NCBI RefSeq assembly: GCF_017643905.1
Contig: NZ_JAEPMO010000007.1
Location: 1 to 51,392 of the forward strand
Length of the DNA: 51,392 nt
Direction: 5' to 3'
From: Marivita sp.
GTDB taxonomy: Bacteria > Pseudomonadota > Alphaproteobacteria > Rhodobacterales > Rhodobacteraceae
A model generated the notes under the pieces. It saw nothing but the letters and a program-made list of their open reading frames with translations, was not told where the DNA came from and searched no databases. Positions 5,054 through 34,542 of the stretch are shown in pieces. Position numbers and translations under genes: made by a program. Within the stretch, counting starts at the first letter, position 1; each line of letters begins with the position of its first letter.

Positions 5054-5092
5054 CCGAGGCGAAATTGACGTCGCGCCTGTGTTTTGCCTCGG
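5054..5092 (+). promoter_or_regulatory. Leader stem-loop ahead of the ABC importer
   Basis: CCGAGGCGAAA (5054-5064) and TTTTGCCTCGG (5082-5092) can form an 11-pair stem with one G-U wobble and a 17-base loop containing the palindrome GACGTC. It ends 78 bases before the first binding-protein start in the roughly 200-base gap after the tRNA. It could be an RNA leader structure or a protein-binding dyad. No convincing -35/-10 pair could be placed in this gap. Confidence 0.4.
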
Positions 5093-5170
5093 GGCTTGCC
5101 AATTGGGCCCGCTTGGCGAACAGTGTCGGCACATCAAATCATCATCTATAACAAAAAACAGGGAAGTCTC

Positions 5171-6751
5171 ATGAAGACGACATTTGCTATTTCCATGGCT
5201 GCTGCACTCTTGGCCACGACAGCCCCAGTCAGTGCGGAAACCTTGCGCTGGGCTCGTTCCGGCGACGCTTTGACGCTTGATCCGCATGCGCAGAACGAAG
5301 GTCCGACCCACACCATCCGCCACCAGATGTACGAACCGCTCATCATCCGCGACGTGACGGGCGCGTTTGAGCCCGCTCTGGCAACCGATTGGGCACCCAG
5401 CGCCGACGATCCCAATGTGTGGGTTTTCAACCTCCGTCAGGGCGTCAAATTCCATGACGGGTCGGATTTCACCGCCGAGGACGTCGTCTTCAGCTTTGAA
5501 CGAGCCAAGCAGCCCAACTCGGATATGAAAGAACTCATCGGGTCGATCACCGAAGTTCGTGCTGTGGACGATTACACCATCGAAATGGTCACCGACGGTC
5601 CGAACCCGATTCTGCCGTCGAACCTCACCAACCTGTTCATCATGGACAAAGGCTGGACCGAGGCGAACAACACGGTCAATGTTCAGGACTTTGAAGGTGG
5701 CGAGATCACCTTTGCCACCACCAATGCAAACGGCACCGGGCCTTACGTGCTGCAAAGCCGGGAACCGGACGTGAAGACCGTCATGGTCAAGAATGACAAT
5801 TACTGGGGCATTGACCAGTTCCCGATGGAAGTGACGGAAATTGTCTACACGCCGATCCAGAACGCGGCGACCCGTGTTGCGGCGCTCCTGTCGGGCGAGG
5901 TTGATTTCCTTCAGGATATGCCGGTGCAGGATCTTGAACGCGTGAGCAATGCCGATGGTCTTGTCGTGAAACAGGCTCCGCAGAACCGCGTGATTTTCTT
6001 TGGTATGAACATGGGCGCCGATGACATCGAAGCGGATAACATCGACGGCAAGAACCCGTTGGCCGATGTGCGTGTGCGCAAGGCAATGTCGATGGCGATC
6101 AACCGCGATGCCATCCAACAGGTCGTCATGCGTGGCCAGAGCCAGCCAGCAGGCATGATCGCACCGCCCTTCGTCAACGGTTGGACCGCTGAGATGGATG
6201 CCGAATCGTCAACTGATATCGAAGCCGCCAAAGCGCTTATGGCCGAAGCCGGTTATGGCAACGGTTTTTCGATCCGTCTGGATTGCCCGAACGATCGGTA
6301 CGTCAACGATGAAGCGATCTGTCAGGCCGCCGTGGGCATGCTGGGTCAGATCGGAATCACAGTGAACCTGGACGCCAAAACCAAGGCGCAGCACTTCCCG
6401 CTGATCACAGACGGGAACACCGATTTCTACATGCTGGGCTGGGGTGTTCCGACCTACGATTCCGAATACATCTTCAACTTCCTGGTGCACGGCCGTGAAT
6501 CCGACATCGGCACATGGAATGGCACCGGCTATGACAATGACGAGCTGGATGCGAAGATCAAATCGCTTGCCTCGAACACCGATCTAGACGCGCGGAACGC
6601 AGACATCGCCTCGATCTGGCGGGTTATTCAGGATGAACAGCTGTACATCCCGATCCACCACCAGGTTCTGAACTGGGGTATGTCCGAAAAGGTTGGCATC
6701 GAGGTCGATCCCGAGGATCAGCCGAAGATCAAGTACTTCACAATGAACTGA
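5171..6751 (+). CDS. ABC transporter substrate-binding protein (family 5), copy 1
   Basis: This 526-residue periplasmic binding protein is of the peptide/opine/nickel family (SBP_bac_5). The signal peptide is residues 1-22, with cleavage expected after VSA. Family blocks include TLDPHAQNEGP, the Tyr-Glu-Pro-Leu segment, LRQGVKFHDGSDFTAEDVVFS and the C-terminal QLYIPIHHQ. The start at 5171 gives the signal peptide and has AGGGAAG upstream, so an in-frame ATG at 5084 is rejected. It heads a six-gene operon and is followed by a second related binding protein. The ligand is probably a peptide, amino-acid derivative or opine; it cannot be fixed from sequence. Confidence 0.9.
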   Translation: MKTTFAISMAAALLATTAPVSAETLRWARSGDALTLDPHAQNEGPTHTIRHQMYEPLIIRDVTGAFEPALATDWAPSADDPNVWVFNLRQGVKFHDGSDFTAEDVVFSFERAKQPNSDMKELIGSITEVRAVDDYTIEMVTDGPNPILPSNLTNLFIMDKGWTEANNTVNVQDFEGGEITFATTNANGTGPYVLQSREPDVKTVMVKNDNYWGIDQFPMEVTEIVYTPIQNAATRVAALLSGEVDFLQDMPVQDLERVSNADGLVVKQAPQNRVIFFGMNMGADDIEADNIDGKNPLADVRVRKAMSMAINRDAIQQVVMRGQSQPAGMIAPPFVNGWTAEMDAESSTDIEAAKALMAEAGYGNGFSIRLDCPNDRYVNDEAICQAAVGMLGQIGITVNLDAKTKAQHFPLITDGNTDFYMLGWGVPTYDSEYIFNFLVHGRESDIGTWNGTGYDNDELDAKIKSLASNTDLDARNADIASIWRVIQDEQLYIPIHHQVLNWGMSEKVGIEVDPEDQPKIKYFTMN

Positions 6752-6811
6752 TCGCGCGGCTGCGCCCTTGAGGCGGGCCTGTCGATCATGGTCATGTGAG
6801 TCACGCCAAAA

Positions 6812-6842
6812 ATGTCGCGGCCTTGTTCTTTGGCCGCGACAT
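6812..6842 (+). other. Intercistronic stem-loop after binding protein 1
   Basis: A perfect 11-pair stem, ATGTCGCGGCC (6812-6822) with GGCCGCGACAT (6832-6842), encloses a 9-base loop. No T-run follows, so it is more likely an RNA 3'-end stabiliser than a terminator. It sits 28 bases before the next binding-protein gene. Confidence 0.7.
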
Positions 6843-6869
6843 CACTGATTTCATCCAAAGGGAAATGCC

Positions 6870-8435
6870 ATGCGACGTTCACTAAGACTGGCGGCCATTC
6901 TTGCCGTATTTGCCCCTGCCGTGCAGGCAGAAGAGTTCACTTGGGCGGTGAACACCGATCCACAGACGATGGATCCTCATGCTGTAAACTCTGCACCTGT
7001 TCTCGGTTTTCTGAACAACGTATACGAAGGTTTGGTTCGTCGCGGAAAAGACATGACTGTCGAACCCGCGCTCGCCACCGCGTGGGAGCCCATAGGCAAC
7101 GGCGAAGGCTGGCGCTTTACGCTGCGCCAAGGTGTGACCTTTCATGATGGTGCCGAGTTTACAGCACAGGACGTGCTGTTTTCCTACCAACGGGCTTCGA
7201 ATGAAGTGTCCGATACACGCAGCTGGTTCGCCCCCGTTTCCGATGTCGTGGTCGTTGATGACTACACGGTCGATTTCATGACCTCCGCGCCGAACCCGAT
7301 TTTCCCAGGATCCATCGCCAACTGGATGATCATGGACAGTGGTTGGGCCGAAGCGAACAATGCCGCGCTGCCGGATAAGGAAAATGGCAACTATGCCACT
7401 CTGAACACCAACGGCACCGGTGCATTCCGCGTCACGGCGCGCGAACCCGGCTTGCGCACGGTTCTTGAACCCTTCGAAGGTTGGTGGGGCGAGACAGAGC
7501 ATAACATCACGCGCGCGGAACTGACACCGATCCAGAATCCCGCAACTGCGCTGGCGGCCCTCCTGTCGGGGGATGTGGATTTCATCAACCCGGTACCGAT
7601 TCAGGATGTGGCCCGGCTGAAAGAGAATCCCGATGTCGATGTCATTCAGGGCATCGAAGCCCGGGTCATCATGCTCGGCTTCCCGCATGAGGCCGAAACA
7701 CTCAAGTTTTCGGCCGAAACAACCGACGCCAACCCGTTCGCCGATGTGCGTGTCCGTCAGGCGGTCGCCCATGCGATCAATGTACCTGCGATCCTGCAAA
7801 CCATCATGCGCGGCAATGCCGAAGAGGTCAGTCAATTGGTCAGCGAAGCGATGCAGGGATATGTCCCGGAACTTGCCGAACGCCCCGCTTATGACCCAGA
7901 TCGCGCCCGCGCCTTGCTGGCCGAAGCCGGATATCCGGACGGATTCTCGTTTGGTTTCAAATGCACGAATGACCGCTATCTGAACGACGAGTCGGTCTGT
8001 CAGGCGATCACCGGGATGATGGCGCAGGTTGGTTTGAAGGCAACTCTGGATGCGATGCCTGTCCAGAATTACTGGCCGGAACTCCGCGCTGACAACTACG
8101 ACATGTTCCTCCTGGGCTGGTCTCCGGGAACGTTTGATGCGGAACACCCGATCCGCTTTCTGGCCGCAACCCCGAACGAGGAAAAGCGCGTTGGAAGCTG
8201 GAATTTCGGAGGCTATTCCAATGCGCGCGTGGATGAACTTTTGCCGATGATCCAGTCCGAGATCGATCCGGTTGCACGTCAGGCCATGATCGACGAAACC
8301 ACCAAGATCCTGCAGGACGAGATGGCTTATCTGCCGATGTATGTGCAGCCTTTGGTGTGGGGCATCCGCAGCAACATTGAAGTGACACAGCGTCCCGATG
8401 ACTTCTTCATCCTACGCTGGGTGACAGTAAACTAA
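6870..8435 (+). CDS. ABC transporter substrate-binding protein (family 5), copy 2
   Basis: A 521-residue paralogue of the preceding protein with the same layout: signal peptide 1-20 (cleavage after VQA), TMDPHAVNSAP, YEGLVRRGKD, LRQGVTFHDGAEFTAQDVLFS, GTGAFRVTAREPGL, and a PMYVQPLVWG end. Long stretches align with copy 1, for example DRYLNDESVCQAI against DRYVNDEAICQAA, indicating an old tandem duplication. GGGAAATGCC precedes the ATG. With only one permease and ATPase set downstream, both proteins probably feed the same channel with different ligands. Confidence 0.9.
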   Translation: MRRSLRLAAILAVFAPAVQAEEFTWAVNTDPQTMDPHAVNSAPVLGFLNNVYEGLVRRGKDMTVEPALATAWEPIGNGEGWRFTLRQGVTFHDGAEFTAQDVLFSYQRASNEVSDTRSWFAPVSDVVVVDDYTVDFMTSAPNPIFPGSIANWMIMDSGWAEANNAALPDKENGNYATLNTNGTGAFRVTAREPGLRTVLEPFEGWWGETEHNITRAELTPIQNPATALAALLSGDVDFINPVPIQDVARLKENPDVDVIQGIEARVIMLGFPHEAETLKFSAETTDANPFADVRVRQAVAHAINVPAILQTIMRGNAEEVSQLVSEAMQGYVPELAERPAYDPDRARALLAEAGYPDGFSFGFKCTNDRYLNDESVCQAITGMMAQVGLKATLDAMPVQNYWPELRADNYDMFLLGWSPGTFDAEHPIRFLAATPNEEKRVGSWNFGGYSNARVDELLPMIQSEIDPVARQAMIDETTKILQDEMAYLPMYVQPLVWGIRSNIEVTQRPDDFFILRWVTVN

Positions 8436-8442
8436 AGCGTTA

Positions 8443-8464
8443 CAGGGGCGCGCCGGCGCCCCTG
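8443..8464 (+). other. Intercistronic stem-loop after binding protein 2
   Basis: CAGGGGCGC (8443-8451) pairs with GCGCCCCTG (8456-8464) around a 4-base loop and is followed by ATACC rather than a T-run. It separates the binding-protein genes from the permease and ATPase genes. It probably protects upstream mRNA or partly attenuates transcription. Confidence 0.7.
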
Positions 8465-8485
8465 ATACCAACCACCGGGGGCGAC

Positions 8486-9466
8486 ATGCTCGCATATATC
8501 ATTCAGCGTGTTGGGCAATCGGCGCTTGTGCTGCTGATCGTCGGGCTAGTCGCCTTTTCGATGTTCCGCTTTGTCGGAGATCCTATCGACAACATGCTGG
8601 GTCAGGAACGCACGGCCGAAGATATCGACCGCTTGCGTGCGCAGCTTGGTCTCGATCAGCCCTTTGTCGTGCAGTACTACAAGTTCCTCGAAGGCGCTGT
8701 GCAGGGCAATTTCGGCGTGAGCTATAGGCAGGGACGACCGGTTGCAGAGATCCTGTTGGAACGCGCACCAGCCACGCTGGAACTTGCCATGGTGTCTGGT
8801 GTTCTGGCGATCCTGTTCGGTATCGCTTTGGGTGTGTTCACGGCTATTCGACGGGACGGACTGCTGGCGAATGTGATCATGTCGGGGTCGTTGATTGGGG
8901 TGTCGTTGCCCACATTCCTGATCGGCATTCTTCTGATTTATCTGTTCTCGGTGGAATTGGGCTGGCTCCCTAGTTTCGGACGAGGCGAGACCGTGGACCT
9001 TGGAGGGTGGTCGACGGGGTTCCTGACGGAAAGCGGGCTCAAAGCACTCATCCTGCCGTCGATCACGCTGGGGCTCTATCAGATGACCCTGATCATGCGG
9101 CTTGTCCGCTCCGAGATGCTCGAGGTGCTGAGGCAGGATTACATCCGCTTTGCGCGCGCGCGCGGTCTGCGTGATCGGGCGGTGAATTTCCGTCATGCTC
9201 TCAAGAACACGATGGTGCCTGTCATCACGGTGATTGGACTTCAGCTTGGCGCGATCATCGCCTTCGCGATCATCACCGAAACCGTGTTCCAATGGCCGGG
9301 GGTTGGCCTGCTGTTCATCAACGCGATTCAGTTCGTCGATATTCCCGTGATGGCCGCGTATCTGATGCTGATCTCCGTGATGTTCGTCGGGATCAATCTT
9401 CTCGTCGACATCCTCTACTTCTTCATTGACCCGCGCTTGCGGGCAGACCGGTCAGGAGGCCACTGA
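8486..9466 (+). CDS. ABC transporter permease, DppB/GsiC type
   Basis: A 326-residue inner-membrane permease. The N terminus MLAYIIQRVGQSALVLL is typical of DppB-type subunits. Several helices follow, with the EAA loop (RLVRSEMLEVLRQDYIRFARA) that docks on the ATPases. The end, FFIDPRLRAD, is also typical. GGGGGCGAC precedes the start. The last base of the stop overlaps the ATG of the next gene (TGATG), showing tight coupling with the partner permease. Confidence 0.92.
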   Translation: MLAYIIQRVGQSALVLLIVGLVAFSMFRFVGDPIDNMLGQERTAEDIDRLRAQLGLDQPFVVQYYKFLEGAVQGNFGVSYRQGRPVAEILLERAPATLELAMVSGVLAILFGIALGVFTAIRRDGLLANVIMSGSLIGVSLPTFLIGILLIYLFSVELGWLPSFGRGETVDLGGWSTGFLTESGLKALILPSITLGLYQMTLIMRLVRSEMLEVLRQDYIRFARARGLRDRAVNFRHALKNTMVPVITVIGLQLGAIIAFAIITETVFQWPGVGLLFINAIQFVDIPVMAAYLMLISVMFVGINLLVDILYFFIDPRLRADRSGGH

Positions 9467-10410
9467 TGTCGGATGTCCCAATTCCGGTGAAGCCGAAGTC
9501 GCGCCTGCGGATCGCGCTCGACAGCGACCTATATTACACATTCCGCCGGTCGCCCGTTGCGATGGTCTCTGCGGCGGTTGTTCTGCTGCTTGTGCTGTCG
9601 GCTGTCTTTGCCCCGCTCATCGCACCGACCAATCCGTTTAACCCTGCCTCGCTCAACCTGATGAACGGGTTTACCGCGCCAATGACGCCCAATGCATTCA
9701 CTGGGGAAACGTTCCTCTTGGGGACGGATGACCAGGGGCGCGATGTGTTTTCGACCATCCTTTACGGCATGCGGATTTCGCTGTTCGTCGGCGTGGCAGC
9801 CGTATTCTTCGCGATGGTTCTGGGCATCACACTTGGTCTGATCTCGGGGTATGTCGGCGGCTGGACCGGAACCATCATCATGCGGACCGCGGATGTGCAG
9901 TTGACCTTCCCGTCGATCCTTGTTGCCATGCTGATCTTCGGGATCGCCAAGGGTGTGACACCGGTCGAATATCGCGACCAGATGGCGATCTGGGTTCTGA
10001 TCCTTGCCATTGGCCTGTCAGATTGGGTGCAGTTCGCGCGTGTGGTCCGTGGTGCGACGCTGGTGGAAAAGAACAAGGAATACGTACAGGCGGCCCGGCT
10101 GATCGGTCGGACACCGGGCGCAATCATGCTGCGGCACATCCTGCCCAACGTGCTGTCACCGGTTCTTGTGATCGCGACGATCTCGCTTGCCTTGGCCATC
10201 ATCGCCGAAGCGACGCTCAGCTTCCTTGGTGTCGGCGCACCACCCACTCAACCATCCCTCGGAACCCTGATCCGCATCGGGCAGGGGTTCCTTTTCTCGG
10301 GCGAATGGTGGATTCTGCTGTTCCCGGCGGTCACACTTCTTGCGCTGGCCCTGTCGGTCAACCTGCTGGGTGACTGGCTGCGCGACGCCCTGAACCCGAG
10401 GCTACGCTGA
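9466..10410 (+). CDS. ABC transporter permease, DppC/GsiD type
   Basis: The 314-residue second permease. A cytosolic N-terminal stretch (RIALDSDLYYTFRRSPVA) is followed by the first helix, then the family motif LLGTDDQGRDVFS, then the EAA loop (RVVRGATLVEKNKEYVQAA) and the closing DWLRDALNPRLR. It pairs with the DppB-type subunit to form the channel. It is joined to both neighbours by one-base TGATG overlaps. Confidence 0.92.
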   Translation: MSDVPIPVKPKSRLRIALDSDLYYTFRRSPVAMVSAAVVLLLVLSAVFAPLIAPTNPFNPASLNLMNGFTAPMTPNAFTGETFLLGTDDQGRDVFSTILYGMRISLFVGVAAVFFAMVLGITLGLISGYVGGWTGTIIMRTADVQLTFPSILVAMLIFGIAKGVTPVEYRDQMAIWVLILAIGLSDWVQFARVVRGATLVEKNKEYVQAARLIGRTPGAIMLRHILPNVLSPVLVIATISLALAIIAEATLSFLGVGAPPTQPSLGTLIRIGQGFLFSGEWWILLFPAVTLLALALSVNLLGDWLRDALNPRLR

Positions 10411-11384
10411 TGGCTGATCCAGTTCTGTCGATCCGCGACCTGTCGGTCGAAATTCCCACGCGGCACGGCATCGTGCGCCCGGTGGATGGCGTCAGCTACG
10501 ACATCGCAGCCGGAGAAATCCTTGGCGTCGTCGGCGAAAGTGGCGCGGGCAAGTCGATGGCGGGCAATGCTGTGATCGGCCTTCTCAATCCCCCAGCGCA
10601 TATCTCCAAGGGGGAGATTTGGCTGAATGGAAAACGCATCGACCACCTGACAGGCGACGCGATGCGACGGCTGCGAGGCAAGGAAATCGGCATGGTCTTT
10701 CAGGATCCGCTGACCTCGCTCAATCCGCTTTTGCGGATCGGGGATCAGCTCACCGAAACCATGCTGACCCACCTGCCGATCAGCCGTTCCGAGGCCGAGA
10801 AACGTGCAGTTGCTGCTTTGGAAGAAGTCGGCATCCCCGGCGCGGCAGAGCGCGTGAACAGTTATCCGCACGAATTCAGCGGTGGGATGCGGCAACGCGT
10901 GGTCATCGCCTTGGCGCTCTGTGCCGAGCCCTCTCTGATCATCGCGGATGAGCCGACCACCGCGCTCGACGTCTCGGTCCAGGCCCAGATCATCGCGCTG
11001 TTGCGTCGCCTGTGCCGGGATCGCGGAACGGCGGTGATGCTGATCACACACGACATGGGGGTGATTGCCGAAGCCACCGACCGTGTCGCGGTGATGTATG
11101 CCGGGCGTTTGGCCGAACTGGGTCCGGTCCGCGACGTGCTGACCCATCCACAGCATCCCTACACGCATGGGCTGATGGCCTCGACCCCCCTTGCTTCGCA
11201 GGGCAAAAGCCGTTTGCACCAGATCCCCGGCGCGATGCCGCGTCTGGATGCAGTGCCGGATGGCTGTGCTTTCAACCCCCGCTGTCCCCATGCAACAGAC
11301 AAATGCCGGCAGGCGCCCGTGCCCCGTGTGAGTAACGGTCAAGCGGCCTGCTGGTACCCCCTGGTCGAGGAAAAGGTCATCTGA
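10410..11384 (+). CDS. Oligopeptide-type ABC ATPase, DppD type
   Basis: A 324-residue ATP-binding subunit with Walker A GESGAGKS, signature FSGGMRQR, Walker B LIIADEPTTALD and switch His in LITHD. The C-terminal oligo_HPY region has the conserved Cys-containing CAFNPRCPHA segment, which in related importers can hold an iron-sulfur cluster. It lies between the permeases and the second ATPase with one-base overlaps. It energises uptake together with the DppF-type subunit. Confidence 0.92.
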   Translation: MADPVLSIRDLSVEIPTRHGIVRPVDGVSYDIAAGEILGVVGESGAGKSMAGNAVIGLLNPPAHISKGEIWLNGKRIDHLTGDAMRRLRGKEIGMVFQDPLTSLNPLLRIGDQLTETMLTHLPISRSEAEKRAVAALEEVGIPGAAERVNSYPHEFSGGMRQRVVIALALCAEPSLIIADEPTTALDVSVQAQIIALLRRLCRDRGTAVMLITHDMGVIAEATDRVAVMYAGRLAELGPVRDVLTHPQHPYTHGLMASTPLASQGKSRLHQIPGAMPRLDAVPDGCAFNPRCPHATDKCRQAPVPRVSNGQAACWYPLVEEKVI

Positions 11385-12346
11385 TGGCGCTTGTACGGGT
11401 CAAAAACCTCAGTCGCGTGTTTGACGTGTCGAAGCCCTGGCTGAACCGGATGATCGAACGTCGTTCCAAAGCGTTCCTGACCGCGGTGTCCGAGGTGGAT
11501 TTCGATGTGGAGCCGCGCAGCACCTATGCGCTTGTGGGGGAAAGCGGGTCTGGAAAATCCACCATCGGCAAGATGCTGGTTGGTCTGTTGAAAGCAACCT
11601 CTGGCGTTGTGGAAATCCAAGGCGTCGATCTGGCCAGCGAAACTGATGCGGCCAAAATCGACGCGATCCGGTCAGACATCCAGATGATCTTTCAGGATCC
11701 TTACGCCTCACTCAATCCGCGCTGGCGGGTGAAGGATATTATCGCGGAGCCTGTTGCCTCGCGTGGAGGGAACACCGAAGGTCTAGCGGAAAAGCTGCTC
11801 GAACAGGTGGGTCTTGCGGTGCAGGATGCAGGCAAATTCCCGCATGAGTTCTCCGGAGGTCAGCGACAGCGGATCTGCATCGCCCGTGCATTGGCGTCAG
11901 AGCCGAACTTGATTGTCTGCGATGAACCGACTTCGGCACTGGATGTGTCGGTGCAGGCACAAGTTCTGAACCTGATGAGCGATCTGAAGGACGATTTCGG
12001 TCTGACCTACGTGCTGATCAGTCATGACCTGACGGTTGTACGGCATATGGCGGATCGGATTGGGGTTCTCTACCTTGGGCGTTTGGTGGAAGAGGCGACG
12101 CCAGACGACCTGTTTGAGACACCAAAACATCCCTATACCCAAATGTTACTGGCAGCTGCACCGCAGATGGATGGCTTCGGCCGCGAAGTGCAACCGCCCG
12201 AGGGGGAAATCCCCGATCCGATCAATCCGCCGTCCGGCTGTGCGTTTCACCCGCGCTGTCCCATCGCGCAGGATATCTGCAAGCAAAAGCGCCCCGAAAT
12301 GCGAAACCTGAAGGGGATACGTGTGGCCTGTCATATGACTGAATGA
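11384..12346 (+). CDS. Oligopeptide-type ABC ATPase, DppF type
   Basis: The 320-residue second ATPase of the importer, with Walker A GESGSGKST, signature FSGGQRQR, Walker B LIVCDEPTSALD, switch His in LISHD and the C-terminal CAFHPRCPIAQDIC segment. It is the last gene of the operon: a strong hairpin with a T-run follows four bases after the stop. The complete set of two binding proteins, two permeases and two ATPases indicates a functional importer. Confidence 0.92.
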   Translation: MALVRVKNLSRVFDVSKPWLNRMIERRSKAFLTAVSEVDFDVEPRSTYALVGESGSGKSTIGKMLVGLLKATSGVVEIQGVDLASETDAAKIDAIRSDIQMIFQDPYASLNPRWRVKDIIAEPVASRGGNTEGLAEKLLEQVGLAVQDAGKFPHEFSGGQRQRICIARALASEPNLIVCDEPTSALDVSVQAQVLNLMSDLKDDFGLTYVLISHDLTVVRHMADRIGVLYLGRLVEEATPDDLFETPKHPYTQMLLAAAPQMDGFGREVQPPEGEIPDPINPPSGCAFHPRCPIAQDICKQKRPEMRNLKGIRVACHMTE

Positions 12347-12349
12347 CGA

Positions 12350-12373
12350 ACGGGGCCCAAAGGCCCCGTTTTT
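12350..12373 (+). terminator. Intrinsic terminator of the ABC operon
   Basis: ACGGGGCC (12350-12357) pairs with GGCCCCGT (12362-12369) around loop CAAA, and the stem runs into TTTTT. It lies between the convergent ABC operon and ggpS. On the opposite strand the hairpin is not followed by Ts, so it serves mainly the plus strand. Confidence 0.85.
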
Positions 12374-12377
12374 GATA

Positions 12378-13868
12378 TCACGCTGCCGACTTTTGTCGCG
12401 CTGGCAACAGGTCTTCGATAGAGGTTCGCCCCCAACTGGCCAAATCGTATCGGCGTATGGCCTCTTGCATCGAGGCCATGCGGTCACGGCGTTCGGGCTC
12501 TGACATGTCGAGTGCCTGCATGATCGCCACATCCATCGACCGATTGGAAAACGGGTTGGTCGCAACCGCAGCACCTAGCTCAACAGCCGCCCCCGCAAAT
12601 TCGGACAACACCAGAGCACCATCGCCGTCAACGCGCGAGGCGATGAATTCTTTTGCGACAAGGTTCATGCCGTCCGCCAGAGGCGTGATCCATGCAACCG
12701 ATGCAGCCCGATAGTACGCCACAAGATCATTGAAGGGTATCGCGCGCGATACCAGAGTGATGGGTTGCCAGTCGAGCGACCCGAACCGTCCATTGATTCG
12801 ACCTGCGGCTTCTTCGATGGCGGATTGAATCTCGCCGTACGCAGCCATCCCGCGGTTCGCGCTGACGGACACATGCATCAGCTGCACCGTCCCTCGCAAT
12901 TCGGGGCGTTCGTCCAGAATGCGTTCGAAGGACTGAAGCTGTTCGATCCCGCCCTTGGTGTAGTCAGTGCGACCGACCGACAGGATCAACTTGCGATCCC
13001 CAAGGTCCTCCAGCAGGTCTTTAGCGCGTGTTTGCGTTGCTCGTTCGTTTGCTCTGCTTTGTATGTAGTCCACATCTACGCCGACCGCCGCGACATTCAG
13101 ATGCACATCCCGGTCGGGTCCGCGCAGGACAGTCGGCACATGACGCTCTGTCAGTGCCGTGCCTTCGGCAATCAGGTCGTCAGACACTTTTTTGCGCTCG
13201 GTGATTTCGACATCCATCAGGCTTTGGACTACGGCGGCGAAGTTGGTGGCATAGCGTGGGATGTGGAACCCGACACTGTCGCATTGCATCAGGCTTTCCA
13301 CGATCTCTTTGCGCCAAGGCAAGACATTGAACATATCCGGTGCTGGGAACGGAGTGTGGTGGAAGAAGGCGATTTTGACGTCTGGCCGCATCTGGCGCAG
13401 ATACCCCGGCACAAGCCACAGATTGTAGTCATGCACCCATACCAAAGCGCCTTGCGCGGCTTCCGCCGCTGCCGCTTCGGCAAACCGCCAATTCACTTCG
13501 CGGAAATTGGGCCAATCAACCGGGTCGTAATTGTAGCGATCCTTGAAGCTGTGCAGGATCGGCCAGAACGCCTCTTTTGAGGTGACGTGGTAAAACTCGT
13601 GCACCTGTTTCTGCGTTAGCGGAAGACGTGAGACCGAGTAGCTACCAAAGCTGTCTTCAACCTCGATCTGCCTGTCCCAGCCGGGATCATTGGCGTCCTC
13701 GGCGAGTTTCCAAGCGACCCAAGCCCCGTGATCGACCTTGCCGAAAAAGCTTTTCAGCGTTGGAACGATCCCGTTCGGGCTCTTGTTTTCACGCAGAACG
13801 GTTTTGCCGTTCTCTTCGACTTCTTCGTAGGGTTGGCGGTGGTAGACGATCACAAGATCGGAGGACAT
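12378..13868 (-). CDS. ggpS: Glucosylglycerol-phosphate synthase
   Basis: This 496-residue GT20 glycosyltransferase joins glucose from a nucleotide sugar to glycerol-3-phosphate. GT20 active-site motifs are present: WVHDYN (144-149), HHTPFP (170-175), GRTDYTK with Arg300 and Lys305, and DGMNLVAKE from Asp399. The N terminus (YHRQPYEEVEENGKTV, SPNGIVPTLKSFF, HVTSKEAFWPILHSF) matches, from memory, cyanobacterial GgpS rather than trehalose-phosphate synthase OtsA. The start ATG shares its first base with the phosphatase stop (TGATG) and has AGGGAG upstream. Cyanobacterial GgpS uses ADP-glucose; the donor here is not proven. Trehalose-6-phosphate synthase is the alternative, but an adjacent glycerol-3-phosphate dehydrogenase argues against it. 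Confidence 0.88.
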   Translation of the reverse strand: MSSDLVIVYHRQPYEEVEENGKTVLRENKSPNGIVPTLKSFFGKVDHGAWVAWKLAEDANDPGWDRQIEVEDSFGSYSVSRLPLTQKQVHEFYHVTSKEAFWPILHSFKDRYNYDPVDWPNFREVNWRFAEAAAAEAAQGALVWVHDYNLWLVPGYLRQMRPDVKIAFFHHTPFPAPDMFNVLPWRKEIVESLMQCDSVGFHIPRYATNFAAVVQSLMDVEITERKKVSDDLIAEGTALTERHVPTVLRGPDRDVHLNVAAVGVDVDYIQSRANERATQTRAKDLLEDLGDRKLILSVGRTDYTKGGIEQLQSFERILDERPELRGTVQLMHVSVSANRGMAAYGEIQSAIEEAAGRINGRFGSLDWQPITLVSRAIPFNDLVAYYRAASVAWITPLADGMNLVAKEFIASRVDGDGALVLSEFAGAAVELGAAVATNPFSNRSMDVAIMQALDMSEPERRDRMASMQEAIRRYDLASWGRTSIEDLLPARQKSAA

Positions 13869-14650
13869 CAAAAGCTCCCTGAAGTTGGATGAAGATCAAA
13901 GGCCGCAATGGCCTCAAGAATGCCCGCAGCGCCTTCGCCGCGCGCGCGGTGGATTTTTGGAGAGGTCGGAAGTTGGTCGTAAAGTGCCTGTTCAGAGCCC
14001 CCGACCGCGACCGCATGCAGATCAGCCGTCAGCATCGAAATATCGTTGAGCGTGTCGCCCGCCGTAAGTACGCGTTCTGCTGAGATGCCGAGAACATTGA
14101 TCAATCGACGAAGGGTCGGGCCCTTTGACACGCCTTTGGGAAGAACGTCGACAAACCGGTTGTCCGAGATAAGAACATCGACATCCAGCTCGCGAACCGG
14201 CGCAAGGTCTGTCGCATCAAACCCGTTTGGCGAGATGTCATAGCTCAGACGATGCCGGAACGGCGTATCCTGCAGCGTCAGACCGTCCACGTTTGACATC
14301 AGCGCTTGGACCTGATCCGCCTTGCCAGCCCAGGCGTGGGCTATCGGCGCTTCTAGCGCGGGCACAGGCAGCACGATGCCGGGCGACAAAACCTGCGCGA
14401 TGGTCGTGCCCACATCCGCGATCACGTAATCCGGCAAGGGGATGCCGTAGGTGTCGGTATGATCTTGAATGAATTCGGGATGTCGGCCTGTGACGAAGAT
14501 CAGACCGATTGTGTCACGGTTCTCTTCGATGAAATTGTAAAGCGCCTCGCGTGCCTCTGCCGATCCTCCAAGGAATGTCCCGTCAAGATCGGTCGCAAGA
14601 ACGAAGTCTTTGTCAGAAATGGCTTTGTGAATCGCGGAATGAACGGTCAT
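13868..14650 (-). CDS. HAD-IIB phosphatase, probable glucosylglycerol-phosphate phosphatase
   Basis: A 260-residue HAD-superfamily hydrolase of the sucrose-phosphatase/Cof type. Motif I is DLDGT with the nucleophile Asp21 and Asp23, motif II includes FVTGRH, and motif IV is the GDTLND metal site near residue 207. It sits between ggpS and the glycerol-3-phosphate dehydrogenase gene, overlapping the first by 1 base and the second by 4. This position makes removal of phosphate from glucosylglycerol-phosphate the likely reaction. It is not the cyanobacterial type of GgpP but resembles the HAD domain fused to GgpS in some gammaproteobacteria. Substrate assignment is inference from context. Confidence 0.8.
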   Translation of the reverse strand: MTVHSAIHKAISDKDFVLATDLDGTFLGGSAEAREALYNFIEENRDTIGLIFVTGRHPEFIQDHTDTYGIPLPDYVIADVGTTIAQVLSPGIVLPVPALEAPIAHAWAGKADQVQALMSNVDGLTLQDTPFRHRLSYDISPNGFDATDLAPVRELDVDVLISDNRFVDVLPKGVSKGPTLRRLINVLGISAERVLTAGDTLNDISMLTADLHAVAVGGSEQALYDQLPTSPKIHRARGEGAAGILEAIAAFDLHPTSGSF

Positions 14651-15789
14651 AGAGGCCTCTTGTCAAATGCAGGGGCGGTGGACAGCGAGGTCGGATGCGC
14701 AAAGGTAAGCGACATCGCACGTGGTTCGGATTCGATGGGTTCAGACCAGAACCGCGCAAAGGTTTCCGCGATCGGCTGACCGTCTTTCAGGATGCTGCGA
14801 ACCGTTTCGCAAATCGGCATAGGGACGGACAATTTACGCGCGAGGTCGGTGACGGATGTCGCGTTGGCCTCGCCTTCGACGATGATCGGTTTGCCGTCGA
14901 AACACGCTGCGCGGTCCAAGCCTTGTCCCAATTGAACGCCAAGCGACATGTTCCGCGATGTTGTGCTGGAACAGGTCAGGGTCAGATCACCGATACCGGA
15001 CAAGTCCGTGACGGTTTCGCGGCGTCCGCCCAAAGCCTCGGCTAGCGCCTTCATCTCGTCCAGACCGCGGGTGATCAGGGCCGCACGGGTGTTTTCCGCA
15101 AACCCGGCACCCCGCATCATCCCGCAAGCGATGGCGATCACATTCTTGACCGCGCCACCGATTTCCACCCCCACCAGATCGTCGGATAGGTACGTGCGAA
15201 ACGCCGGTGTCGCCAGCGTAACAGCCATCCGGGCCGCCGCGCTGTTTTCAGGGTCGAGCCGATCCGCCTGATCGAATGAAAACGCCAATGTCGCGGCAGA
15301 GGGATGCCCGGCGGCCAACTCGGTGGCAAAGGTAGGACCTGATAATGCTCCAACACTGTGGCCGGGCAGTTCATCCTCCACGATCTGGGACATCAGAAGC
15401 CCGGTCTCTGCCTCGATCCCCTTGGCACAGACCACAATCGGAATTCCTGCCGGGGTGACGGGCCGCATCGCACGTGCCGTGGACCTGATCGCGTGGGAAG
15501 GGACGACCAGCAATACCGCGTCCGCATCGCGCAGAACGGTCATCAGATCGTCCGACGCGGTTATCGACGGAGCGATATCAATCTCTCCGAGATAGCCGGG
15601 ATTCTGCGCAGTCCGGTTGATGGTCTCGGCAATTTCCGCCCGGCGGCTCCACAGCGAAACCTGCGTGCTGTCCTGCGCAGCCACATGCGCAAGCGCGGTG
15701 CCGTACGCGCCTGCTCCCATGACGGCGAGGCGACGATAGGGATAGGCCGACCGCAGGAGGGGGTCGCCCGACAACCGGTCAATTTTCAT
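14647..15789 (-). CDS. gpsA: NAD(P)-dependent glycerol-3-phosphate dehydrogenase
   Basis: A 380-residue enzyme interconverting dihydroxyacetone phosphate and sn-glycerol-3-phosphate. It has the Rossmann motif GAGAYGTA near residue 25, the family block CAKGIEAETG and the catalytic-Lys region VGVEIGGAVKNVIAIACG. The ATG at 15789 is weakly supported by a ribosome-binding site, but the first strand RRLAVMGAG must be included. The long open frame to 16023 lies across the galU start and is rejected. It is the first gene of the operon, overlaps the phosphatase gene by ATGA, and supplies the acceptor for GgpS. It may be a second, dedicated copy beside a housekeeping gpsA elsewhere; the window cannot show that. 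Confidence 0.88.
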   Translation of the reverse strand: MKIDRLSGDPLLRSAYPYRRLAVMGAGAYGTALAHVAAQDSTQVSLWSRRAEIAETINRTAQNPGYLGEIDIAPSITASDDLMTVLRDADAVLLVVPSHAIRSTARAMRPVTPAGIPIVVCAKGIEAETGLLMSQIVEDELPGHSVGALSGPTFATELAAGHPSAATLAFSFDQADRLDPENSAAARMAVTLATPAFRTYLSDDLVGVEIGGAVKNVIAIACGMMRGAGFAENTRAALITRGLDEMKALAEALGGRRETVTDLSGIGDLTLTCSSTTSRNMSLGVQLGQGLDRAACFDGKPIIVEGEANATSVTDLARKLSVPMPICETVRSILKDGQPIAETFARFWSEPIESEPRAMSLTFAHPTSLSTAPAFDKRPL

Positions 15790-15941
15790 TCGAATGCACC
15801 GTTCAAACAGGATTTCATACAAGGACAACACCAACAAACGCCGATGGGTTCCTTGCAAACGCAGAAAAATGCTGCATCTGCGAAACGATTTCGGCCGCAG
15901 CGCGTTCACCTGAATATTGCAACCATTCAAGGAGTCTGCCA

Positions 15942-16835
15942 ATGACCCGTCATGTGCGTACTGCGATCTTTCCCGTTGCAGGTCTTGGAACACGCTTCCT
16001 GCCCGCGACAAAAGCGACCCCAAAAGAACTGCTGCCGGTGCTGGATACGCCGCTGATTCAATACGCAGTCGATGAAGCGCGCGAAGCGGGGATCGAACGC
16101 ATGATCTTCGTCAGCCATCCGTCGAAAAAAGCCATCGAGCGTCACGTGATGGAAGACGCCCGTCTCACCCGAGAACTTAAAGCACGCGGGAAAGCGGACA
16201 TTGCAGAAGCGCTTTCGGATGCCGCGCTTTGTCCGGTGGAGGATGATGCGCGATTTGTCATGCAGCCCGAACCCAAAGGTCTTGGGCACGCAGTGCTTTG
16301 CGCCAGGGATCATGTCCTTGATGGCCCGGTTGCGGTGATCCTGCCGGACGATCTGATCCTTGGGCAGGTCGGATGCCTCAGCGAAATGGCGGCGGCCTAT
16401 GCTTCGGGTGAAATTGGCCACTTGGTTGCGACCATGGAAGTGCCGGAAGATCGCGTTCACAAATACGGCGTTCTCTCGGTGACAGGTAAGAACGGAGCGA
16501 TCATCAAGGCTGATGGAATGGTCGAGAAGCCCAAAGCACAAAACGCGCCGTCCCGGCAAGCCGTGGTCGGGCGCTACATCCTCGATGCGTCCATTTTTGA
16601 CGCGCTGGAAACGCAGAAACCCGGTGCCGGTGGCGAAATACAATTGACCGACGCGATTGCGTGCGGCGCAGCGGATTTGGGGCTGGGTGGCTTCCAGTTC
16701 TCGGGGACACGGTTTGATTGCGGCTCCAAGGCCGGTATGCTCGAGGCGACCTTGGAACTGGCGGCACAGGATCCGGAATGTCTGGAAGTGCTCAGGGCGC
16801 GTGGCCTTCTACAAACACGCCCCGTCGCAGCCTGA
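15942..16835 (+). CDS. galU: UTP-glucose-1-phosphate uridylyltransferase
   Basis: A 297-residue nucleotidyltransferase making UDP-glucose from UTP and glucose-1-phosphate. The N-terminal signature AGLGTRFLPATKA with KELLPVLDTPLIQYAV is diagnostic, and the later VEKP and GGEIQLTDAI blocks agree. AAGGAG lies 8 bases before the ATG. It is divergent from the glucosylglycerol operon across 152 bases, so the two may share control. UDP-glucose would also serve the exopolysaccharide region at the right end of the window. Confidence 0.93.
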   Translation: MTRHVRTAIFPVAGLGTRFLPATKATPKELLPVLDTPLIQYAVDEAREAGIERMIFVSHPSKKAIERHVMEDARLTRELKARGKADIAEALSDAALCPVEDDARFVMQPEPKGLGHAVLCARDHVLDGPVAVILPDDLILGQVGCLSEMAAAYASGEIGHLVATMEVPEDRVHKYGVLSVTGKNGAIIKADGMVEKPKAQNAPSRQAVVGRYILDASIFDALETQKPGAGGEIQLTDAIACGAADLGLGGFQFSGTRFDCGSKAGMLEATLELAAQDPECLEVLRARGLLQTRPVAA

Positions 16836-17985: not shown

Positions 17986-20271
17986 TCAGTCCGCGCCACG
18001 CACCGGGATCGTCGCATCGGGGCGCGGGTGCAGGACTTTTTGCACAAAGTAGGTTGCTGCCGCGATACCCACCCCGATCAGGTCGGTGATCAGCCCGCCT
18101 TCAATCATGAAGAGCGCGGCAAGGATCAGCGCGATCCGCAGGAACCAGACCGACCGTCCGCCAAGGAACCAACCTTGCACACCCGAGCTAAGAAGGAACA
18201 CCCCGATCGTCGCGGTCACTCCGGCGCGGATGACTTCGAACCAGGTTCCATCCATCAGGATCGCGCTGTTGTAGAAGAACATGTAGGGCACGATGAAAGC
18301 CGCGATGCCGATCTTGAACGACGCGACCGATGTTTCCATCGGGTTCGCACCCGAGATCCCCGCTGCCGCATAGCTTGCCAGTGCGACCGGAGGTGTGATC
18401 GCTGACAGAACCGCGAAGTAGAAGACGAAGAAGTGTGCCGTCAGCGTCGGGATGCCCAACTGCACGAGGCCGGGCGCAACGACCGACGCGGCAACCGCGT
18501 AGGCGGCGGTGGTCGGCATGCCCATCCCAAGCAGGATCGCGATACACATCGCAAAGAACAGCGCCAGAAGCTGGCTCACGCCTGCAAGGTCCAGAAGCAC
18601 AGCCGAGAAGCGTGCCCCGACTCCGGTCAGGCTGATCACACCCACGATGATGCCCGCGCAGGCACAGACCGCGATGATCTGGATCGACATGATCCCGGCC
18701 AGCTCAAATGCTTTGAGGATCGACCGCAGGCCCATTCGATGCGGCGTAAACCACGACACGACCGCTGCTGCGACGGTCGCCAAGGTGCCCGCGCGGATCA
18801 CGGAATAGCCCATGAACAGGGCAACGATCAGGATGATGATCGGGATGAACAGGTAGACCTGACGCACAAGCTTGTTGAACTTGGGAAGTTCGTCTTCCCG
18901 CATCCCGCGCATGCCAAGCTTGGCGGCCTCGAAATCGACCATGAAGTAGACCGACACGAAATAGAGGATCGCGGGGAGGATCGCGGCAATCGCGATGTCG
19001 GTATAGGGAATACCGGTGATCTCGGCCATGATGAAAGCGCCGGCACCCATGATCGGCGGCATGATTTGCCCACCGGTCGAGGCCGCTGCTTCAACCGCGC
19101 CAGCGGTTTTCTTGTGGTAGCCCACGCGTTTCATTAACGGGATGGTCAGCGATCCGGTCGCCACCACGTTGCCTGCCGACGTACCGTTGATCATGCCCAT
19201 CAGACCTGATGCAAAGATGGCCACTTTGGCGGGGCCACCCCGCGCACGACCCGCAGTCGCAAACGCAAAGTTGACAAAGTAGTCGCCCACTTTTGACGCC
19301 TGAAGAAAGGCCGCGAAGATGATGAACAGGATGATGTAGGTCGACGACACCGCCGTAGTCGGTCCCAGAATGCCCGCGTCGGAATAGACATGGCCGAAGA
19401 AGCGTTGCCAAGAATAGGCGCTTTGCACCGCGAGGATGCCGGGCAGCAAGTGCGCCACAAAGGTATATAGCAGGAACACACCGGTGATGATCACCAGTGC
19501 CAGACCCGCGACGCGGCGTGTGAGTTCGAGGATCATTGCAGAGCCTGCGGTCGCCGCAAAGGCGACCCCGATGGGCACAAACGGCGTACCGACGGCGTTG
19601 CGCGCGGCGGTGCCGTAGATGGCAATGAGATATATTGCGATGACGATCCCGCACAGGGCCAGAACCACGTCTGAGGCGGCGAAAAGCTCTCGCCCCCGTC
19701 TTTCGAACCAGCCAGTGACGATGGCTCCAAACGTGGCGATCAGAAGTGGCGTTCCGAACCACCAGACCTCACTGGCATAGATTTCGGTTCCTGGAAAAGC
19801 GGCCCATGTGGTCAGACCGCCCATCTGCGGCAGCGTGCCCGAATTGATGAGTGTATGATAGCCTGATGCGGTGATCCCGGCGACCAGTGCAGGAATGACC
19901 AAGATCAAAGCAAGAATCGAGATCAGCTTCGTTTCCTTGTGGGGTGCGTCATCTTCCGAAAAGGTGTGCGCTGAAAACAGCAGGAACCCCAGGGCCAGAG
20001 CGCCCGAAATGTGCACGATCCGGAAGTTCCAGGTTTCCAGAGGGAATTGCGGCAAAAACGGTATTTCGATCCCGGTCCAATCGGAAATGGACACCCCGTT
20101 CAATGCGATCATGTGGAACGCGGCATAGATGGTCGAAAGTGCGGCCATCACGAAATAGGCGCGCCCTGAAAACAGACGGCGGTTGCTCTCGATCGGTTCC
20201 TCGTCAACGCCTTCGGCGAGAATGGGTTCGTCCAGCGGCTCGTCGGCATGCAGGTTTTTGGAATCGGTCAT
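17986..20271 (-). CDS. TRAP transporter fused permease (TAXI type), system 1
   Basis: A 761-residue inner-membrane protein in which the small (DctQ-like) and large (DctM-like) TRAP subunits are fused, as in TAXI systems. It has many hydrophobic helices. Large-subunit motifs include SGLMGMINGTSAGNVVATGSLTIPLMKR (the G-x-S/T-x-x-N type hairpin region, residues near 365-390), STGGQIMPPIMGAGAFIMAE and LGMGMPTTAAYAVA. It works with the binding protein encoded just upstream to import a small organic anion, driven by a cation gradient. A minus-strand terminator-like hairpin between the two genes probably lowers permease expression. The substrate is likely a carboxylate, judging by the dehydrogenases nearby. 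Confidence 0.9.
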   Translation of the reverse strand: MTDSKNLHADEPLDEPILAEGVDEEPIESNRRLFSGRAYFVMAALSTIYAAFHMIALNGVSISDWTGIEIPFLPQFPLETWNFRIVHISGALALGFLLFSAHTFSEDDAPHKETKLISILALILVIPALVAGITASGYHTLINSGTLPQMGGLTTWAAFPGTEIYASEVWWFGTPLLIATFGAIVTGWFERRGRELFAASDVVLALCGIVIAIYLIAIYGTAARNAVGTPFVPIGVAFAATAGSAMILELTRRVAGLALVIITGVFLLYTFVAHLLPGILAVQSAYSWQRFFGHVYSDAGILGPTTAVSSTYIILFIIFAAFLQASKVGDYFVNFAFATAGRARGGPAKVAIFASGLMGMINGTSAGNVVATGSLTIPLMKRVGYHKKTAGAVEAAASTGGQIMPPIMGAGAFIMAEITGIPYTDIAIAAILPAILYFVSVYFMVDFEAAKLGMRGMREDELPKFNKLVRQVYLFIPIIILIVALFMGYSVIRAGTLATVAAAVVSWFTPHRMGLRSILKAFELAGIMSIQIIAVCACAGIIVGVISLTGVGARFSAVLLDLAGVSQLLALFFAMCIAILLGMGMPTTAAYAVAASVVAPGLVQLGIPTLTAHFFVFYFAVLSAITPPVALASYAAAGISGANPMETSVASFKIGIAAFIVPYMFFYNSAILMDGTWFEVIRAGVTATIGVFLLSSGVQGWFLGGRSVWFLRIALILAALFMIEGGLITDLIGVGIAAATYFVQKVLHPRPDATIPVRGAD

Positions 20272-20337
20272 CGTGTCCTCCCGGGTGATGGCCTGTGTAG
20301 CCTGAACGCTATCTTGAACCGGCCATCATTGAAACAA

Positions 20338-20364
20338 AACCGCGCCCGCATGTGGGGCGCGGTT
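20338..20364 (-). terminator. Attenuator-like hairpin between TAXI binding protein and permease
   Basis: Read on the minus strand, AACCGCGCCC (20364-20355) and GGGCGCGGTT (20347-20338) form a 10-pair stem with a 7-base loop, followed by TTTTGTTTC. This is a good intrinsic terminator placed between the two genes of one transporter. Partial read-through would give much more binding protein than permease. Confidence 0.8.
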
Positions 20365-20420
20365 CCGATTCTTCAGCACTTGCAAACAATAGAAACGCAT
20401 TGTTCGCAAATCATGCATAA

Positions 20421-21404
20421 TCATCCGCCGTGGATCATATCCGCCGCAATGCTTGCACTTGCGTTTTCTGTGAACCAGCGCGCTGCGCCGGGGTGCCACT
20501 TCATGACGGTGTTGCGATCCCAGAATTCCGGCAGTGTGGAGCGCGCTGCGCGGTGCGTGTTCACCATCCGCTCATTGTCTGACATGACCGCGTTGACGAC
20601 TTCGTACACGAAGGTCTCGGGCAGGTCGCAGTTTGCGATGGCGAAGTTCCACATCGAGACCGACCGTGCCGGCGCTTCGAGTGTGGTGTAGGCATCGGCA
20701 GAGATGTCGAAATTCGCCACAGGGAAGGCTGCCGTGATCTTGGCCTGTTCTTCTTCGGTGAATTCGATGATGTTGATCGCGGTCTGAACCTCAAGCTGCG
20801 ACACCGCAGGAACCGGAACACCCGCTGCGAAGGCGATCACGTCCAGCAGACCATCCTGAAGCTGACCGCCAAGGTCGGACCAGCCGCCATTGCGACGTTC
20901 GAAATTGACGCCCAGTTCTTCCATCATGCGCGGGAAATAGGTGTCGGATGTCGAGCCTGCCGGGCCAAAGCCGATACGCGCACCTGCCGGGATATCAGAG
21001 ATGGACGCGATCCCCGACGATGCGAGAGCGGTGACCGAGAACGGTGTCTGGTACATCGGGAACATCGCACAGGCGTTGGTCATCGGCAGACCCGGTGCAA
21101 TCGGGTTCGAACCGGCGATCGATTCCGCCGCAGGGCCCATGGTTGTCATGCCAAAGGGCAGATCGCCGGTGTGGACCAGCGCCATGTTCTGCATCGGGCC
21201 GCCGGTGACTTCGGCGCCGCCAGAGACACCCAGAACCTCGGACACGATCCCGGCCCAGCCAGAGCCATAGCCGAAATACGTCCCACCCTGCGATCCGGTG
21301 CCGACGGTAAAGCTCTCTGGCCAGCCTGTCCGATCCTGAGCGACGGACATGGTTGCCGAAAAGGCAGCGACCACAACGGCCCCTGTCAAAGCAGTAAATT
21401 TCAT
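20421..21404 (-). CDS. TAXI-family TRAP solute-binding protein, system 1
   Basis: A 327-residue periplasmic binding protein. The signal peptide is residues 1-22 (cleavage near SVAQ), followed by the TAXI hallmark TGSQGGTYFGYGSGWAGI. Later segments include ARIGFGPAGSTSDTYFPRMM and the C-terminal HPGAARWFTE. It captures the substrate for the fused permease encoded downstream. GGAGG lies 6-7 bases upstream of the ATG. A GCGGAT/ATCCGC dyad lies about 56 bases before the start. TAXI ligands include glutamate and other carboxylates; the ligand here is unknown. Confidence 0.9.
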   Translation of the reverse strand: MKFTALTGAVVVAAFSATMSVAQDRTGWPESFTVGTGSQGGTYFGYGSGWAGIVSEVLGVSGGAEVTGGPMQNMALVHTGDLPFGMTTMGPAAESIAGSNPIAPGLPMTNACAMFPMYQTPFSVTALASSGIASISDIPAGARIGFGPAGSTSDTYFPRMMEELGVNFERRNGGWSDLGGQLQDGLLDVIAFAAGVPVPAVSQLEVQTAINIIEFTEEEQAKITAAFPVANFDISADAYTTLEAPARSVSMWNFAIANCDLPETFVYEVVNAVMSDNERMVNTHRAARSTLPEFWDRNTVMKWHPGAARWFTENASASIAADMIHGG

Positions 21405-33491: not shown

Positions 33492-34502
33492 ATGAAATAC
33501 TTCAAGACCGCCGCACTTGCGGCGACCATCGCGTTTTCGGGCATTGCCGCACATGCGCAGAGCGAGGCCGGAAGCTATGTTTTGACCACGGCATCGACCG
33601 GTGGCACCTACTATCCGGTGGGCGTTGCGCTTTCGACGCTGGTAAAGGTCAAGCTTGAGCCGAGCCAGAAGATCGGCATGTCCGCGATCAGCTCGGCCGG
33701 GTCCGGTGAGAACATCCGCTTGCTGCGCGAAAATGAGGCGCAGTTCGGCATTCTGCAGGGTCTGTTCGGCTATTATGCGGCTACGGGCACAGGTCCGATC
33801 GCAGAGGTTGGACCGCAGGAAAACCTGCGCTCTGTTTCGATGCTGTGGCAGAACGTGGAGCACTTTGTTGTCTCGTCTGATGTGGCAGCAACCGGCACAC
33901 TGTCCGACATGGTCGCGCTGAAAGGCGAGGCGATGGCAATGGGTGCGCAGAACTCGGGTACCATCGGGTCAAACCGCACCATCCTGTCCGGCTTTGGCAT
34001 CGACATCGACACCGATTATGAACTGGTCTACGGCGGCTACGGCCCGTCCGCAGAAGCGCTCCAAAACGGTCAGGTCAAGGGCATCGGTGCCCCTGGCGGC
34101 GTACCGGTTGGTGCGATCAGCCAGTTGATGGCATCTGCAGGTGACAGCGTCACGCTGCTGAGCCTGACCGAAGAAGAAATGAAGATGGCGGATTCGGATC
34201 GTGGTCTCTGGACGCCCTACACCATTCCGGCTGGGTCCTATCCGGGTCAAGACACGGATGTGCAGACCGTTGCACAGCCAAACTTCCTGGCCACCAATGC
34301 GGATATCCCGGAAGAGCACGTCTATCAGATCACGAAGGCAATCTACGAGAACCTGCCCTTCCTGCAGGCCATCCACCCGGCAACAAAGGTGATGAGCATC
34401 GAAAGCGCGATTGCTGGTCTGCCGCTGCCGCTGCACCCCGGTGCGCTGCGTTATTATCAGGAAGTTGGCTTGGATATTCCCGAACGCCTGATCGCCAAGT
34501 GA
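33492..34502 (+). CDS. TAXI-family TRAP solute-binding protein, system 2
   Basis: A 336-residue periplasmic binding protein. The signal peptide is residues 1-22 or so (cleavage after AHA), followed by the TAXI motif TASTGGTYYPVGVAL, then NSGTIGSNRTIL and the C-terminal PLPLHPGALRYYQEVG. AAGGGGAGG lies upstream of ATG 33492. It is more typical of the family than the first system's protein. It sits between dctBD and its fused permease. A stem-loop follows its stop codon. Confidence 0.91.
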   Translation: MKYFKTAALAATIAFSGIAAHAQSEAGSYVLTTASTGGTYYPVGVALSTLVKVKLEPSQKIGMSAISSAGSGENIRLLRENEAQFGILQGLFGYYAATGTGPIAEVGPQENLRSVSMLWQNVEHFVVSSDVAATGTLSDMVALKGEAMAMGAQNSGTIGSNRTILSGFGIDIDTDYELVYGGYGPSAEALQNGQVKGIGAPGGVPVGAISQLMASAGDSVTLLSLTEEEMKMADSDRGLWTPYTIPAGSYPGQDTDVQTVAQPNFLATNADIPEEHVYQITKAIYENLPFLQAIHPATKVMSIESAIAGLPLPLHPGALRYYQEVGLDIPERLIAK

Positions 34503-34517
34503 ACCACACCAATTCGG

Positions 34518-34542
34518 CCAGCCCGTGCAAAGCGCGGGCTGG
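34518..34542 (+). other. Intercistronic stem-loop after TAXI binding protein 2
   Basis: CCAGCCCG (34518-34525) pairs with CGGGCTGG (34535-34542), and the stem can be extended inward by two pairs, one of them a wobble. TTCTCT follows, too weak for a full terminator. It resembles the hairpin in the same place of the first TAXI system. Confidence 0.65.

Follow-up and report, generated by a model that had tools for sequence, protein, structure and literature searches.

A gpsA-phosphatase-ggpS operon with a linked galU paralogue, a probable glucosylglycerol pathway in Rhodobacteraceae

The window analysed here is a stretch of 51,392 nucleotides from Marivita sp. (Rhodobacterales; Rhodobacteraceae), covering positions 1 to 51,392 of the forward strand of contig NZ_JAEPMO010000007.1 (assembly GCF_017643905.1), and its subject is a three-gene operon to which we assign a probable role in the synthesis of glucosylglycerol. 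First in the operon is gpsA (14647..15789, minus strand; assigned from its open reading frame and family models), which encodes an NAD(P)H-dependent glycerol-3-phosphate dehydrogenase. It is followed on the same strand by the gene of a HAD-IIB phosphatase (13868..14650; assigned in the same way), probably a glucosylglycerol-phosphate phosphatase, and by ggpS (12378..13868, minus strand; assigned from its open reading frame, the TIGR02398 model and a tree), which encodes a GT20 glucosylglycerol-phosphate synthase. The three reading frames lie exactly where an earlier note on this DNA had placed them, with the 4-base and 1-base overlaps that it described: gpsA and the phosphatase gene share ATGA, and the phosphatase stop codon TGA shares one base with the ATG of ggpS at 13868. 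The list of open reading frames had put the ggpS start at a TTG three bases upstream of this ATG; counted from the ATG, most relatives align from residue 1. On the opposite strand, 152 bases from the start of gpsA, begins galU2 (15942..16835, plus strand; family models and a tree), a paralogue of UTP-glucose-1-phosphate uridylyltransferase that accompanies ggpS. The divergent intergenic region between them (15790..15941, no strand) holds one TGCNGCA motif, at 15870-15876.

The synthase scores 650.6 bits against the GgpS equivalog model TIGR02398 (cut-off 569), which none of 14 control genomes passes. All OtsA models stay below their cut-offs, the curated TIGR02400 among them (412.2 bits; cut-off 564.85). 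In a tree of 77 GT20 rows, 66 GgpS rows split from 11 OtsA rows with a support of 100, and the window's protein is one of 48 alpha-type and cyanobacterial rows that group together (support 100). The rows of fused GgpPS, in which the phosphatase and synthase parts form one protein, make up one group (support 90) and the cyanobacterial rows another (94); the alpha-type rows as a group are weakly supported (51), and the label also takes in two beta-proteobacterial loci (L208, L210), G294 and one actinobacterium. All trees in this study are quick trees with one support value each, and they hold, as do the 26 intergenic regions discussed below, a few duplicates (L061/L188, L082/L131, L035/L177). 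The reading of the synthase as OtsA was rejected on the sub-cut-off OtsA scores and the tree placement, so the GgpS assignment of the earlier note holds in both models and phylogeny. In the genome as a whole ggpS is the sole GT20 gene found, in an assembly of 274 contigs and 95% completeness in which a second GT20 gene could have gone unseen.

The pair could in principle be a trehalose-6-phosphate synthase and its phosphatase, mislabelled as GgpS: the synthase is a GT20 member, it is 28-37% identical to the OtsA-like loci compared, and its best solved relatives are OtsA. The acceptor site speaks against this. In mycobacterial OtsA, Arg324 and Gln146 bind the acceptor (PMC6879718), whereas the window's GgpS has Asn at both equivalent positions. 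Among the 45 GgpS of the order, the Arg324-equivalent is Asn in 42, Asp in three and Arg in none, compared with Arg in 14/14 OtsA rows, and the Gln146-equivalent is Asn in 45/45. This replacement of both OtsA acceptor residues bears indirectly on the predicted use of glycerol-3-phosphate as the acceptor. Together with the model scores, the tree, the presence of gpsA within the operon and the phosphatase's family matches (S6PP and HAD, no trehalose-phosphatase family among those listed), it makes the trehalose pair very improbable.

The phosphatase itself scores above the cut-offs of TIGR01484 (HAD-IIB; 58.8 bits, cut-off 41.8) and Pfam S6PP (156 bits, cut-off 20.3), and below those of the curated sucrose-phosphate phosphatase models TIGR01485 (67 against 183.65 bits) and TIGR02471 (96.2 against 209.75 bits). 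TIGR02399, the family of cyanobacterial GgpP, has no match anywhere in the window's genome; the same model gives 504.3 bits in Nodosilinea (cut-off 365.5) and a partial 170.5 in one Spirulina genome. With the cyanobacterial control working, the enzyme is indeed unlike cyanobacterial GgpP, as had been claimed from the letters. Judged by homology, it is not a new kind of phosphatase: it corresponds to the N-terminal domain of fused GgpPS, here as a separate protein, and is 36-43% identical to that domain in 40 fused loci. The motifs DLDGT and GDTLND are intact in it, and all three HAD motifs looked for are present in 45/45 phosphatases of the order sample.

The fused GgpPS of Stenotrophomonas, Pseudomonas, Azotobacter and Marinobacter have HAD and GT20 parts in the same order as the operon, with synthase parts 40-48% identical to the window's protein. 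They are a single open frame in 40/40 loci, whereas the window and 44/44 relatives have two genes, with gpsA and often galU2 attached, and the window's synthase is nearer to cyanobacterial GgpS (46-52% identical, in one supported group). Cyanobacterial ggpS loci differ in turn: none of the 11 compared has a HAD-IIB neighbour within a flank of up to 5 kb (L200 has no upstream flank). A second alternative retains glycerol-3-phosphate or a similar acceptor but gives another glucoside as the end product. The product is predicted from the genes, and GpsA also serves lipids, both of which leave room for it; yet the synthase has its phosphatase partner in 44/44 relatives, this phosphatase is homologous to a domain fused to GgpS in 40/40 fused loci, and Stenotrophomonas rhizophila, a bearer of the fused gene, makes glucosylglycerol (PMC10873239, PMC3653106). 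We consider another glucoside unlikely.

To follow the gene set across genomes we used a sample of 292 genomes of the order, every viewed row of which falls in the window's own family; genome counts given here are not phylogenetically independent, with the exception of a stratified test in six genera. TIGR02398 is exceeded in 45 of these 292 genomes, the window's included, and in 12/398 genomes of a phylum sample. The phosphatase gene adjoins ggpS in 44/44 relatives over the cut-off and gpsA is also there in 37 (the seven others are G075, G089, G134, G221, G239, G258 and G291), so the neighbourhood is more than chance. Phosphatase and synthase are separate genes in 45/45 loci of the order sample and in 26/26 named alpha-type loci. 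The whole triad is found in named genomes of Salipiger, Roseicyclus, Celeribacter, Pseudooceanicola and Oceanicella, as well as of Filomicrobium and Hoeflea. It is also present on a 2.4 Mb contig of the actinobacterium Microbacterium excoecariae (L207), with identities of 55% for gpsA, 52% for the phosphatase and 56% for ggpS; the synthase of this organism is placed inside the alpha-type rows of the GT20 tree, which suggests transfer of the set. The three genes thus seem to move as a unit. Clustering of neighbouring frames of at least 120 amino acids, with groups required in at least 5 of the 44 loci, found a single group, ABC-transporter-ATPase-like by eye, in 10/44 loci. A separate observation concerns Flavihumibacter and Sphingobacterium (L169, L170, L174), where a fused HAD-GgpS has a distant gpsA homologue (26-28% identity) on the same strand, lying upstream of the synthase part by about 800 bases; these loci raise the possibility that gpsA and GgpS became paired on more than one occasion.

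We consider it likely that the operon serves the synthesis of the compatible solute glucosylglycerol. On paper, the path from dihydroxyacetone phosphate to glucosylglycerol that the earlier note had proposed is complete. GpsA would reduce dihydroxyacetone phosphate to glycerol-3-phosphate, GgpS would move glucose from a nucleotide sugar onto it, and the HAD phosphatase would then release glucosylglycerol. A single transcript, translated in a coupled manner, is the probable source of all three proteins, and the operon may be induced by salt.

The operon GpsA exceeds the cut-off of NF000942 (360.8 bits; cut-off 257) and matches Pfam PF01210 and PF07479. Its presence gives the pathway a glycerol-3-phosphate supply within the operon, as first claimed, but the supply is not exclusive, since the genome also holds a second gpsA, as well as a glgC over the cut-off and a second galU. 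The second gpsA lies behind a tsaD-like gene (named by eye). Its product belongs to the same enzyme family, but is 38% identical to the operon GpsA and separate in the tree, in which 65 rows beside ggpS stand apart from 7 others with a support of 99 and several long branches. Both gpsA copies are found in 29 of the 45 GgpS genomes, only the non-operon copy in seven and only the operon copy in nine (G081, G110, G146, G165, G202, G203, G227, G247, G284). In three both-copy genomes checked, gpsA is directly behind tsaD; in the nine operon-copy-only genomes tsaD is present, with no gpsA within 1.5 kb on either side of it. These nine represent five genera, four of them with two sampled members each that agree with one another, which makes assembly gaps an unlikely cause. 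Since no other gpsA was found in them, the operon gene has probably taken over general glycerol-3-phosphate synthesis in the nine genomes, and in those genera it would therefore not be a purely dedicated supply.

By its family matches, galU2 is a divergent GalU paralogue: TIGR01099 (GalU) is its best model, although at 279.6 bits it stays below the cut-off of 326.8, and its nearest solved structures are UTP-glucose-1-phosphate uridylyltransferases. The genome's other GalU (contig C97), to which it is 51% identical, passes with 343.6 bits. Despite being of one family by sequence, the two fall in separate clades. A tree of 66 rows, of which 64 are different, places 31 rows of the best-scoring other GalU on one side of a branch (support 100), and the opposite side holds 28 ggpS-linked, three OtsA-linked and four unlinked rows. 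Counting as galU2 any match that is 63% or more identical to the window's protein, we find it in 27/292 genomes: 24 of the 45 with GgpS as opposed to three of the 247 without (p 1e-19). Within the six genera that contain both kinds of genome the figures are 8/15 and 2/35 (stratified p 0.001). With the exception of G044, where it is located elsewhere, the gene adjoins the operon in its GgpS carriers (23/24); 21 of these 23 copies are divergent from gpsA, one is divergent from the phosphatase gene (L063) and one is downstream of ggpS (L065). Members of the galU2 clade also stand beside OtsA-like GT20 genes at L128, L129 and L130 (G154, G058, G254); in G154, a GgpS genome, and G058, these copies match at 58% and were not counted. 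Outside the GgpS genomes, galU2 of G077, which has no GT20 match, is end to end with a GH94 glucan-synthase-like gene, and no related gene was seen by eye alongside galU2 in G136 and G042.

In the window, galU2 probably provides UDP-glucose under the control region that it shares with the operon. The TGCNGCA motif occurs in 20/26 divergent gpsA-galU2 regions, the window's included, against a mean of 8.9 in GC-matched stretches of the same loci; as this control reaches a maximum of 17, we treat the enrichment as a hint. A near-palindrome close to TGTCAAAAAACGACA, allowing at most two mismatches, was seen in 12/26 regions (e.g. L038, L061, L067) and 0 to 2 times in control draws. It is not found in the gpsA-galU2 region of the window and was not used.

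Whether this GgpS draws on UDP-glucose or ADP-glucose was raised as a question by the neighbouring galU, and the evidence points both ways. In favour of UDP-glucose are the linkage of galU2 to ggpS, the OtsA-like genes that partner other members of its GalU clade and six GgpS genomes in which glgC is matched only weakly (G078, G089, G139, G195, G237, G291; best E-values 4e-8 to 4e-4); in two more (G081, G247) the match is stronger but likewise fails to reach the cut-off. Several observations weigh against a UDP-glucose route. First, galU2 is absent from 21/45 GgpS genomes, four of the six with weak glgC among them; as only two of those six carry it (G089, G195), there is no neat compensation between galU2 and glgC. 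Second, glgC is over the cut-off in 37/45 GgpS genomes compared with 104/247 others (p 5e-7), and the window's genome, which was searched for it, has it too; within mixed genera this link fades (14/15 against 19/35, p 0.056). Third, donor preference in mycobacterial OtsA, an enzyme that accepts both nucleotide sugars, is set by Leu319, Val363 and Glu367, and Phe is part of the change that turns it towards UDP-glucose (PMC6879718). The window's GgpS has Val, Ile and Asp at these three positions; across the order's 45 GgpS, the second is Ile or Val in 44 and the third is Glu or Asp in 39, and the pocket of cyanobacterial GgpS is similar (nine Ile and two Leu at the second position, Glu or Asp in 11/11 at the third). 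The UDP-type Phe is found in 0/45 GgpS of the order and in 11/40 fused enzymes. The pocket rule may, however, not be transferable to GgpS, because the OtsA-like neighbours of the galU2 clade vary (Phe, Ile and Val), the fused enzymes have Phe in only some cases and the mycobacterial enzyme takes both donors.

The same operon could thus encode an ADP-glucose enzyme fed by GlgC, as in Synechocystis, whose GgpS requires ADP-glucose (PMC6004087), with galU2 meeting some other need for UDP-glucose, for instance in envelope or periplasmic glucans. The cyanobacterium-like pocket, the frequency of glgC, the glycogen-gene-like frames (by eye) that flank glgC in the window's genome and the GH94-like neighbour of galU2 in G077 all fit this alternative. 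It sits less well with galU2 adjoining the operon in nearly all its GgpS carriers, with the three clade members beside OtsA-like genes and with the six genomes of weak glgC. Moreover, in an engineered glucosylglycerol producer, lowered UDP-glucose pyrophosphorylase was part of the gain, which the authors put down to carbon drawn from sucrose (PMC8168540), and on that account a galU linked to an ADP-glucose pathway would seem to drain it. On balance we lean slightly towards UDP-glucose as an important donor, at about an even chance; the ADP-glucose enzyme is a serious contender at somewhat less than that, and the small remainder goes to the use of both.

Behind ggpS, between convergent genes, a GC-rich hairpin (12349..12370, minus strand; from folding) is a possible terminator. 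The 51-base stretch containing it (hairpin 12370-12349) folds with -20 kcal/mol (z -3.75); it has no T run and is not listed by the terminator scan, and promoter and terminator scans of the window yielded no more than shuffled sequence. Past the hairpin, an oligopeptide-transporter gene converges with the operon, part of a block at 5084-12346 in which two family-5 solute-binding proteins are followed by dipeptide/oligopeptide ABC transporter genes; the OppF gene is in the same place in the nearest relative (L051, G082) and 93% identical. Two separate TRAP-type loci, each with a DctM-like permease and an NMT1-like binding protein, lie at 17986-21404 and 33492-36683, the latter preceded by a histidine kinase and a sigma-54 response regulator.

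Heterotrophs that make glucosylglycerol and have fused GgpPS have been published (PMC10873239, PMC6753628, PMC3653106), a published figure places gpsA or glpD close to ggpS in certain cyanobacteria (PMC6753628, Fig. 6 legend), and a gene named glucosylglycerol-phosphate synthase is listed for Paraoceanicella profunda (PMC7002103). Overexpression of glycerol-3-phosphate dehydrogenase was part of the raised salt tolerance of the engineered producer (PMC8168540). Among the titles and abstract beginnings of the open-licence papers listed, none dealt with this operon in its unfused form in Rhodobacterales or with a galU next to ggpS. We take the operon to be a known pathway in a new arrangement, with an unfused set, gpsA and, frequently, galU2.

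As an osmolyte, glucosylglycerol is known above all from cyanobacteria, where it is tied to ADP-glucose. The fuller proposal, which we place just short of an even chance, is a UDP-glucose route through a dedicated GalU paralogue, uncoupled from the ADP-glucose of glycogen, on a transferable set whose gpsA has taken over lipid glycerol-3-phosphate in several genera, the evidence for this last half being the gene counts and the look at the tsaD locus. What the genomes show directly is the gene order, the family memberships, the conservation, both paralogues and, in nine relatives, no gpsA but that of the operon; the pathway reactions, salt induction and donor we infer. Of the 292 genomes sampled from the order, 45 have an unfused glucosylglycerol set, often with a paired UDP-glucose gene. 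Should UDP-glucose be the donor, these heterotrophs would make the osmolyte independently of glycogen metabolism, and if the operon gpsA has indeed replaced the other gpsA, the supply of lipid precursor would be tied to an osmolyte operon.

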